Assembly (NCBI RefSeq): GCF_002162315.1
Contig: NZ_CP021416.1
Coordinates: 496,001-560,000 of the forward strand
Length of the DNA stretch: 64,000 nt
From: Sulfurospirillum diekertiae
GTDB taxonomy: Bacteria; Campylobacterota; Campylobacteria; Campylobacterales; Sulfurospirillaceae
Direction of reading: 5' to 3'
Below, piece by piece: positions 8,404-11,880 of this stretch; the first letter of the stretch is position 1, and every line of letters begins with the position of its first letter. Under the pieces are notes generated by a model. That model worked only from the letters and a program-made list of their open reading frames with translations, was not told the DNA's origin and did not search any database. A program made the position numbers and the translations under genes.

Positions 8404-8859
8404 TTAGATTCCTTCTATAAATTGATTGAAGGTGGAAGGCAAGACAATAGCCTTCTTGTCAAGTCTATTTTTAATAAAAACAATATTAGGCCTACTCTTG
8501 TTCCAAAAAAGTGCTCCATAGTATTTGTCATCTGATAATAATTTACGATAGTTATTTGTAAAAAAGAGTCTTTTAGTATTGTCGCATAACGTCTCACGAT
8601 CAACCGTTTTATTGACAAAAACAAAGTTTGATGTTTCACATTTTTGAGTGAGCGTAAAATATTGAGAATAGACTTTCTTCTCCATCTCTGACATATTTGG
8701 AATAAAAAGTTTGATCTCTTCATGAAGAGAGGATGTTGCAATTTCAGAGATGATTTTCGCCTCAAGTTCTATCTCTTTGCTGTAAGGTTGAACCAAAAAA
8801 GTATAGTTTTCTGCCGATAAAAGGCCAAAAAAAGTTAAAAGAAGGATGAGTCTTTTCAT
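8404..8859 (-). CDS. Small exported protein of unknown function
   Basis: A 151-residue protein beginning MKRLILLLTFFGLLSAE, a signal peptide with likely cleavage after residue 16. I choose ATG 8859 because it overlaps the upstream stop codon as TAATG; an in-frame GTG lies four codons upstream. The mature part has two cysteines and the segments LFFTNNYRKLLSDDKYYGALFWNKSR and KAIVLPSTFNQFIEG (first one split here only for description). I do not recognise a family. Its place between a TonB-dependent receptor and a GGDEF-EAL protein suggests a periplasmic go-between, by analogy with YfiR in the YfiBNR system, but no sequence match to YfiR is apparent. Confidence 0.75.
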   Translation of the reverse strand: MKRLILLLTFFGLLSAENYTFLVQPYSKEIELEAKIISEIATSSLHEEIKLFIPNMSEMEKKVYSQYFTLTQKCETSNFVFVNKTVDRETLCDNTKRLFFTNNYRKLLSDDKYYGALFWNKSRPNIVFIKNRLDKKAIVLPSTFNQFIEGI

Positions 8860-10766
8860 TAGAAAACCCACCTAAAGGAGAGAGTGACACTTCGATCATT
8901 GTCATCTAATGCAAAATTGGTTTTTCCAAAATTTTCTAAATACAGTGACTTTGTCGATTTATCTAAAATGTTGCTTGCTTTAATACTATAACTCAAATCT
9001 TTTGTGACATGATAGGTCGCACCAAGGCTCATATCAAAGCTATTGGGAATATCAAGATTAAGGTATTCATAGCCATTTCGATAGATCACTGAAGTGAAGT
9101 AATCAAACTTTTGATACCCACCCATAAATTTGATAAAACCGCCTTTGGTTGAGTTATTGACGGTCTCACTCAAATTGGAAGTATAGTAATTGAGTTTGAT
9201 TTTGTCCCTATTGGAAAAGCTATACTCGTAGTCAAAGATGAGCCCATTTGTGGTGATAGTACGGTCAATATTGATAAATCCAACAGGAGTAAGATAGAGA
9301 AAATTATCCATATCAACATGATTGTAGTTAATGCCAAATTTGGAATCTCCTTCGGTATAAACCGCCTCGAGGGTATAGATATAATACTGCTGAGATTTGA
9401 GATTGGGTTTAGTTCTATCGGCATAATCGACATTGTAAAAAGATGGAGGAAGGGCTGTTTGGGTATAAAAACTTTTAAATCCCCAATTTTCGGTTGGGGT
9501 ATAGATAGCGCCAACTCTTAAAAGCGTCTCTGTACTGTCTTGTAGGTAGGCATTACGATCATAGGAATCAAGTTTTGCATTAGCCACTAAAATAAGTGTA
9601 TCGTTTAGTTTATAATTGTCTTGAAAGAGTATCGATGAAGTGGTCTCTTCATCAAAAGCGTTATAGTTTCCTACATTGCGTGTTTGATTCATGAAATTGG
9701 TGGTTTCACGGTTTTGCACATCATAGGTTTTGTTTTTAACATTGAGTGCTGCGATGAATGAATTGTCTTCAACATCAAATGATTTAGAAAGATAGGCATT
9801 GGTTTTGAAAAATCATAGATCTTCGTTAAAATTTTTAGGAATGGTTGCCCCAAGATTGGAGAAATTTAAAACAGGGATCAGTCCTATACCTTGCGCATTT
9901 GCTTCATCATAACTTCGATCATTCACATCGACAGAGAGGTTGGCTTTAAGCGACTTGTCGTCTAGAAAATAGTGTGTATAGTTAATGAAAAAATCTTTGG
10001 AGAGATTTTGTCCACTATCAGGTGTAGCATCAAGGGCGAGTCCCGCATAATTATTTTTAGAAACATCCGTATAGCCCATGTTGATTTTTGTCGTTTCATT
10101 GCTAACGTCGGCATAAAGATATTTCTTATCGCCATTGGTATTAAGTTTATGACCATCGTAAAGTGTTGTATATTTAATCTGTTCATGGTTGAGAAACATT
10201 AAATAAGACCAACCATTTTCCAAACTTGAAGAGTTGGTAAAACTTTCTGAATGAGAACCTTTTGTTGTGATCAATCCATTGAGTTCAGAGCCATTCTCTT
10301 TCAGCGCTGATTTGGTGTAAATACGTACAAAATAGATACCTGTTTCATTCCCAAAGGAAAAGGAGCTCTCACCATAGTAAATCTCAACGTGATCAACAAA
10401 ATCTAAAGGTAAATCGCTCCAAGAGAGTGAAGTGGATTGATCGTAACCTGAACTGATCTCATGGTCATTAATGAAAAATCTAAAGAAGCCGCTGGTTGTT
10501 GTTTTGGAACCGATAAGAGAGTAATTGGTCAATCCAAATTGGTTGGTATTAACGTTAAGAAGAGGGAGTTCTTTTAAAATATCGTTGAGTTTAGTGTACT
10601 GCATCAATCGAATTTCTTTTTGCGAATAAATAACGACATGCCCAATTTTTTCATTGACGGTTTGCAATGAATTATCAGAAGTTGTTTTATATTCTTGAAG
10701 TAAAGAGTCGAGTGTGTCAGCTAAGAGTAGACCGACACTTAATGCAATCAATAAAATAATTTTCAT
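8859..10766 (-). pseudogene. TonB-dependent receptor interrupted by one TGA
   Basis: Two open segments in the same minus-strand frame (10766-9813 and about 9812-8859) are separated only by a TGA at 9815-9813. Read through, they give a protein of about 634 residues: signal peptide (MKIILLIALSVGLLLAD), a plug domain (LNDILKELPLLNVN, FINDHEISSGYDQ, VDHVEIYYG), then a long β-barrel ending in a C-terminal aromatic residue (LSFRWVF), as in TonB-dependent or colicin-receptor-type outer-membrane proteins. Adjacent homopolymers cannot explain the stop. It is either a recent nonsense mutation or a base error; the rest of the frame shows no decay. The next gene is translationally coupled to its stop. 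Confidence 0.8.
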
Positions 10767-10955: not shown

Positions 10956-11300
10956 CTATTCTACGCTTCTTACTTTTTTCATCTCTTCTTCTCTTTCTTT
11001 GAGAAAGAGTTCTAAGTTATATTTGAGACGATACTGTGGTGTCATAAGATGAATGAGTACATCCCCCATATCAATCACCGTCCAGTTATCATCGGCATCA
11101 ACATTTAAAAAGCTTTCACCTGCGCCTTTGAGCTCTGTTTTGAGATGATCTAAAAGTGAAAGCCCGTGTCGCTCACCCATTGTGGTTGCAATAACAACGG
11201 TGTTAACAAAATAATCTTTGCCACTCATATCAAATACTTGTATATCTTCTGCTTTTTTATCGCTCAGAGCAGTTACGATTCTTTCAATTCTATTATCCAT
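10956..11300 (-). CDS. rsfS: Possible separate RsfS from an internal start
   Basis: ATG at 11300-11298 is in frame with nadD and is preceded by AAGGA with a 5-base spacing, a better site than many true starts in this window. It would give a 114-residue RsfS of normal family length. RsfS binds ribosomal protein L14 (uL14) and blocks subunit joining. Whether the cell makes the fusion, the short form or both cannot be decided from sequence. Confidence 0.6.
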   Translation of the reverse strand: MDNRIERIVTALSDKKAEDIQVFDMSGKDYFVNTVVIATTMGERHGLSLLDHLKTELKGAGESFLNVDADDNWTVIDMGDVLIHLMTPQYRLKYNLELFLKEREEEMKKVRSVE

Positions 11301-11837
11301 TGGATTCCTTGTATAAAACGCTATCACTTCATTTTTGATGGCTTTTGGAATAAATCTTGGGTCCAAAAATGAGCGGAGCTTTGAAGAACTGATATTAACA
11401 TTAATTGGTAAAATTTTCAAGTCTTTTGGGGGAGTAAACTCTCCTCTGGGTGCTACTACAAATTCAACAAGCTTACAAAGCTCATCATAGCGGTTCCATT
11501 TAGGAAGAGAGGAAAAACTATCACTTCCAACGAGTAAAAAGAGTTTTGCTTCTGGATACAAACTCTTTACATGTAAAACAGTTTCAATGGTAGGAACTTG
11601 CCTTTTTTGATCACATTCATAGGAAAAAATTTCGACCTTCTCCATACCTTCAAACATCTTAGCCAGCCATTTCTGGCGCATTGATGCGGGGGCGCAAAAG
11701 CTCTCTTTAAAAGGGCTGAGGTAAGTAGTCACGACTAAAAGCTTGTCAATATCAAGAATTTCAAGGGCTTTTTTAACAATGAGTTCGTGCCCAGAGTGAG
11801 GAGGATCGAAAGAACCTCCAAAAATAGCTATATTCAA
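10956..11837 (-). CDS. nadD: NadD nicotinate-nucleotide adenylyltransferase fused to ribosome silencing factor RsfS
   Basis: A 293-residue frame. Residues 1-179 are NadD, which makes NaAD from NaMN: MNIAIFGGSFDPPHSGH with the nucleotidyltransferase GxFDPxHxGH motif, and ISSSKLR near the end. Residues 180-293 are a complete RsfS (DUF143) domain containing KKAEDIQVFDM, VVIATTMGERH and NWTVIDMGDVLIHLM. In related genera these are two adjacent genes. The junction is Met180, preceded by a strong ribosome binding site, so this may be a fused frame that still expresses RsfS separately. It is transcribed divergently from gapA. Confidence 0.9.
   Translation of the reverse strand: MNIAIFGGSFDPPHSGHELIVKKALEILDIDKLLVVTTYLSPFKESFCAPASMRQKWLAKMFEGMEKVEIFSYECDQKRQVPTIETVLHVKSLYPEAKLFLLVGSDSFSSLPKWNRYDELCKLVEFVVAPRGEFTPPKDLKILPINVNISSSKLRSFLDPRFIPKAIKNEVIAFYTRNPMDNRIERIVTALSDKKAEDIQVFDMSGKDYFVNTVVIATTMGERHGLSLLDHLKTELKGAGESFLNVDADDNWTVIDMGDVLIHLMTPQYRLKYNLELFLKEREEEMKKVRSVE
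11566..11577. repeat. Palindrome TTTACATGTAAA copy 2 (in nadD)
   Basis: Exact copy inside the NadD coding region, read as Leu-His-Val-Lys. Confidence 0.97.
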
Positions 11838-11880
11838 CTGTAAGACTCCATGTACTTTAAACTTTTTTATACATCATTTT

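Follow-up and report, generated by a model that had tools for sequence, protein, structure and literature searches.

A joined nadD-rsfS frame in Sulfurospirillum diekertiae keeps an inner rsfS start and probably gives two products

RESULTS

A complete NadD and a complete RsfS in one reading frame

Within a 64,000-nucleotide stretch of Sulfurospirillum diekertiae DNA (contig NZ_CP021416.1, positions 496,001–560,000; hereafter the window), nadD and rsfS occupy a single open reading frame on the minus strand (Table 1). Comparison with related loci suggests that one gene probably yields both a NadD-RsfS protein and free RsfS, the joining being an overlap of the two coding regions that happens to fall in frame 0, with no coupling of NAD supply to ribosome dormancy needed to explain it.

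Table 1. Features of the joined nadD-rsfS frame (window coordinates)
Feature	Position	Strand	Remarks
nadD-rsfS joined open frame	10956..11837	(-)	293 codons, TTG start
NadD domain, nicotinate-nucleotide adenylyltransferase, residues 5-172	11322..11825	(-)	TIGR00482; GGSFDPPH and ISSSKLR present
GGAG, likely nadD ribosome binding site	11846..11849	(-)	read by eye; 8 bases before TTG 11837-11835
AAGGA, internal Shine-Dalgarno-like site for rsfS	11306..11310	(-)	sequence; kept in relatives
ATG180, internal rsfS start codon	11298..11300	(-)	sequence; start codon here in relatives too
Predicted free RsfS, 114 aa	10956..11300	(-)	inferred: start 11300, stop 10956
RsfS domain, residues 184-277	11007..11288	(-)	TIGR00090

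The NadD part scored 128.6 bits against the NCBIfam profile TIGR00482 (cut-off 112.45; profile positions 1–189 of 194), and the RsfS part scored 86.9 bits against TIGR00090 (cut-off 56.9; profile positions 2–97 of 99). PF02410 matched the RsfS part at 77.5 bits (cut-off 21.6), and a PF01467 match above its cut-off was also present in the joined frame. An earlier note on this DNA, made from the sequence alone, had described NadD and RsfS domains sharing one frame, with Met180 at the domain junction and AAGGA at suitable spacing in front of it. Both points hold, as the two domains each exceed their NCBIfam cut-offs, and AAGGA ends five bases upstream of ATG180. Not one stop codon occurs from the nadD start to the rsfS end. 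In the genome (2,876,536 bases, one contig) there was one RsfS match, and the only NadD match above the cut-off was the joined frame itself; NadD must therefore function either with RsfS still joined to it or once the tail has been trimmed off.

The placement of nadD and rsfS in the same frame leaves NadD without a stop. In the mechanism that we propose, ribosomes starting at the nadD TTG would produce the 293-aa NadD-RsfS, since no stop codon lies on the way, and ribosomes initiating at AAGGA/ATG180 would, as conservation of this site suggests, produce the free 114-aa RsfS. The fusion would be tolerated and probably close to neutral. We infer that both proteins are produced and that the long product is active in NAD synthesis.

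The joined frame recurs among Campylobacterales

An RsfS match was found in 23 of 24 Sulfurospirillum genomes, and in 18 of these 23 the frame was joined, with lengths of 296–305 aa; four of the remaining five carried sound separate nadD and rsfS genes, and one (L004) was frame-broken. S. diekertiae NZ_CP023275.1 contained the same joined frame at 98% identity, and S. cavolei NZ_AP014724.1 also had a joined frame, both chromosomes being titled complete. A joined frame was likewise present in a Campylobacter sp. draft genome.

Across the order, 158 loci from 78 genera were sampled, and removal of 25 that lacked an adjacent same-strand nadD (some of them at contig ends) left 133 adjacent same-strand nadD-rsfS pairs, of which 43, from 18 genera, were joined and 90 were separate. 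The fraction 43/133 is no frequency estimate, because loci L074–L113 had been picked partly for a joined-looking frame; in the frame-blind subset outside the window's family (L024–L072 and L174–L209), 10 of 65 pairs were joined. In the family to which the window belongs, 35 pairs were counted; 27 of them were joined, in all five genera, and none of the 35 had an in-frame stop before rsfS. The count excludes a 36th pair, whose NadD is frame-shifted in a draft genome, as well as a family genome with a partial match (G308). Separate versions of nadD and rsfS occur within the window's own family and genus. Mapped onto a protein tree, joined frames formed 22 all-joined clades and required at least 18 changes of state, as compared to a mean of 36.6 changes with shuffled labels.

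Comparison of the junction in relatives, which the earlier note had proposed, thus gave a divided answer: separate genes, named in that note as a possible refutation, do exist (90 of the 133 pairs), but in most of these nadD ends inside rsfS in another frame. The length of the open frame on its own was rejected as a test of fusion, as one locus (L025) has a frame of 266 aa, yet its NadD lies in another frame. In one family member (L093; G262, genus g2), 284 bases separate the end of the best NadD match from rsfS, so that the two do not abut, unlike in the five joined members of its genus that were sampled. The frame break of the draft Sulfurospirillum genome mentioned above lies within the NadD core (L004, 900–1500; same place as L138) and is likely an assembly error; L004/L138 were left out of the frame counts, being "separate" only through the frame-shifted NadD core.

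The inner rsfS start is maintained at the nucleotide level

A start codon stood at the rsfS position in all 43 joined and all 90 separate pairs, and the combination of a start codon with a Shine-Dalgarno-like 4-mer (AAGG, AGGA, GGAG or GAGG) was found in 43/43 joined and 89/90 separate pairs, counts that overstate independence, as the genomes are related by descent, and that rest on taking the best-scoring candidate between 21 bases before and 6 bases after the extrapolated domain start as the rsfS start, a choice that favours good motifs. As a control, same-size intervals elsewhere in the joined frames, scored by the 4-mer only, carried a start codon and a 4-mer in 369 of 10521 cases (3.5%). 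As a second control, 493 in-frame start codons at other places were inspected, and 8.1% of them had a 4-mer in front.

The rsfS start codons of the joined frames comprised 39 ATG and 4 TTG. Of the 27 joined frames in the window's family, 26 encoded Arg at codon -3 from the inner start, the exception being L122 with His. This Arg codon was AGG in 26 of 26, whereas AGG made up about 5% of Arg codons both in the window (32 of 642) and in the remainder of the family's joined frames (17 of 344). Other families had AAA GGA, GAA GGA, AAG GAG or CAA GGA at the motif position. The GG core of the motif occurred in all three codon phases (in 12, 6 and 1 genera, one genus using two of them), and the encoded residues varied (TR, EG, KG, KE, QG) while the DNA motif persisted. 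Protein constraint cannot account for the motif, given the invariant AGG, the different codon phases and the TTG starts; instead, a motif that persists in varying codon phases, together with AGG in 26 of 26 cases, indicates that the inner start is maintained as a start. Judged by this nucleotide-level conservation, it is free RsfS that selection can be shown to preserve. Among the options that the earlier note had listed for this frame, the presence of start and motif in joined and separate pairs alike best supports a dual-product gene.

The joined frame probably corresponds to a common overlap that falls in frame

In most of the sampled Campylobacterales with nadD and rsfS as neighbours, the two coding regions abut or overlap. 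With overlap in the other frames defined as nadD ending inside or at the start of rsfS, and with L004 excluded, 43 of the 53 frame-0 pairs, which are the joined ones, ran into rsfS without a stop, and 60 of the 79 pairs in the other two frames showed rsfS overlap (Fisher p 0.53). The result was similar when each genus state was counted once (18/26 in frame 0 versus 41/55 in the other frames, p 0.61) and for the frame-blind loci outside the family (10/15 versus 36/50, p 0.75). The three relative frames were used about equally by genus state (26:23:32, p 0.46).

Overlap rates are thus similar across frames, and we therefore regard the joined frame as the usual overlap that falls in frame: NadD in frame 0 cannot end at rsfS, whereas in the other frames it encounters a stop codon just after the beginning of rsfS. 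By this comparison of frames, the fusion looks like the in-frame version of a common overlap and not like a purpose-built NAD sensor. Equal overlap rates are compatible with neutrality but do not prove it. All 27 frame-0 pairs of the window's family are open, but they are kin by descent; the absence of in-frame stops in the family mostly reflects this shared descent, but it is the one result with which selection for joining would be in keeping.

A structure model shows two domains with practically no linker

An AlphaFold2 model of NadD-RsfS, built from an alignment of 20 joined relatives (A1), showed two folded domains (mean pLDDT 86.7), the mutual placement of which is uncertain (pTM 0.62). 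A helix comprising residues 164–176 is followed by a helix comprising residues 178–192 (model numbering, i.e. ORF numbering minus one), leaving a one-residue break and practically no linker. Core residues of both domains are invariant across the joined relatives, which share 42–92% identity, and the 20-sequence alignment revealed no residue pattern conserved at the joint apart from the Met. PDB sequence matches included MALSU1 chains with N-terminal extensions (chain residues 88–187 of 228). Purely by analogy, the RsfS tail of NadD might dock on the ribosome.

DISCUSSION

Alternative explanations of the joined frame

The earlier note had entertained a true bifunctional protein. According to this explanation, the joined form would have been selected because it couples NAD supply to ribosome dormancy, and the inner start would be minor or a relic. 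Conservation speaks for it to some extent, as the frame is joined in five of five genera of the family without an in-frame stop before rsfS, and the invariant cores of both domains have been kept among divergent relatives. Nevertheless, we consider it unlikely: start and Shine-Dalgarno motif are retained at the nucleotide level in every joined frame, separate versions exist in the same family and genus, and the model leaves practically no linker between the domains. Wolinella succinogenes, a member of the same bacterial order as Sulfurospirillum, offers a further point of reference.

The NadD-RsfS fusion itself is already known, having appeared in print in 2011 as NadD-YbeB (PMC3223725). As described there, the W. 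succinogenes version has the same two domains within a single protein as the joined frame in the window. According to a table in that paper, the Wolinella fusion was tested for a proposed NAD-linked role, and no NAD cleavage or pyrophosphatase activity was detected (PMC3223725), which argues against a bifunctional enzyme. The passage concerned treats the fusion as an NAD-linked candidate and does not mention an inner start (PMC3223725). If the fusion is a recurrent frame-0 overlap, then functional conclusions drawn from domain fusion, such as those once proposed for NadD-YbeB, have little evidential weight. Of the bifunctional protein, then, the long frame stands as real and conserved, but a purpose-built double function lacks support. 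The argument from domain fusion to a coupling of NAD and dormancy was set aside, and the earlier note's idea that NAD status might be tied to dormancy is rejected as unsupported.

A different form of selection would retain both products. In the Sulfurospirillum family, every NadD would bear a ribosome-docking tail, free RsfS would come from the inner start, and the ratio of long to short product would set the share of NadD on idle large subunits. Given zero in-frame stops among 27 frame-0 pairs from five genera, we allow this explanation a slim chance.

Synthesis of the long product alone, followed by proteolytic cleavage into NadD and RsfS, is quite improbable. Each of the two is a complete domain, and the joint is a one-residue break between helices, but proteolysis leaves the kept AAGGA and start codon unexplained, and the joint bears no conserved residue pattern except the Met in the 20-sequence alignment. 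We see equally little prospect for the idea that free RsfS is the sole product of importance and that the tail which NadD carries is degraded or inert. The nucleotide-level evidence does support the inner start alone, but no stop codon separates the nadD start from the rsfS end, and in the model the tail adopts a domain fold (mean pLDDT 86.7).

Finally, a missing base or a miscalled stop as the origin of the joined frame can practically be discounted: four genus members with sound NadD do have separate frames, and in the draft genome of L004/L138 the NadD frame is clearly broken, but the same open frame is present in single-contig genomes such as NZ_CP023275.1 and NZ_AP014724.1 and in 18 genera. 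This conservation of the open frame, in finished as well as draft genomes of relatives, refutes the lost stop codon that the earlier note had considered, in the sense of either a read error or an accident of recent date.

Relation to other overlapping and internal-start genes

It is established that some genes, rpn among them, contain an internal start from which just the C-terminal part is translated (PMC10327210). Like nadD-rsfS, for which this is a prediction, rpn gives rise to a full-length protein and, by means of a ribosome binding site and start codon within the gene, to a separately translated C-terminal domain (PMC10327210). The short rpn products inhibit the long ones (PMC10327210), whereas RsfS is an ordinary housekeeping protein encoded by a separate gene in most relatives. 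Compared with the same-strand overlapping gene pairs, including frame-0 overlaps, described in another study (PMC2542354), the frame-0 case of nadD-rsfS recurs within one orthologous pair in many genera. Among the open-licence papers searched, PMC3223725 alone named the fusion, and we found none that deals with the inner start in it or with the explanation by frame.

An apparent "bifunctional protein" can arise repeatedly as the frame-0 result of a tight overlap, with the downstream gene retaining its own start. An annotation that calls just the long frame would miss the free RsfS. For the dual-product gene that we favour, the locus offers a simple, testable pair of products.

A split TonB-receptor-like gene nearby

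A neighbouring TonB-receptor-like gene (8859–10766, minus strand), with a Plug domain in its 5' part, is split into two frames (9813–10766 and 8859–9719). In an S. diekertiae relative (L128, 2572–3879, open at the end), one continuous frame extends over the TonB-receptor-like stretch. The split gene in the window is either a broken gene or the result of a read error.
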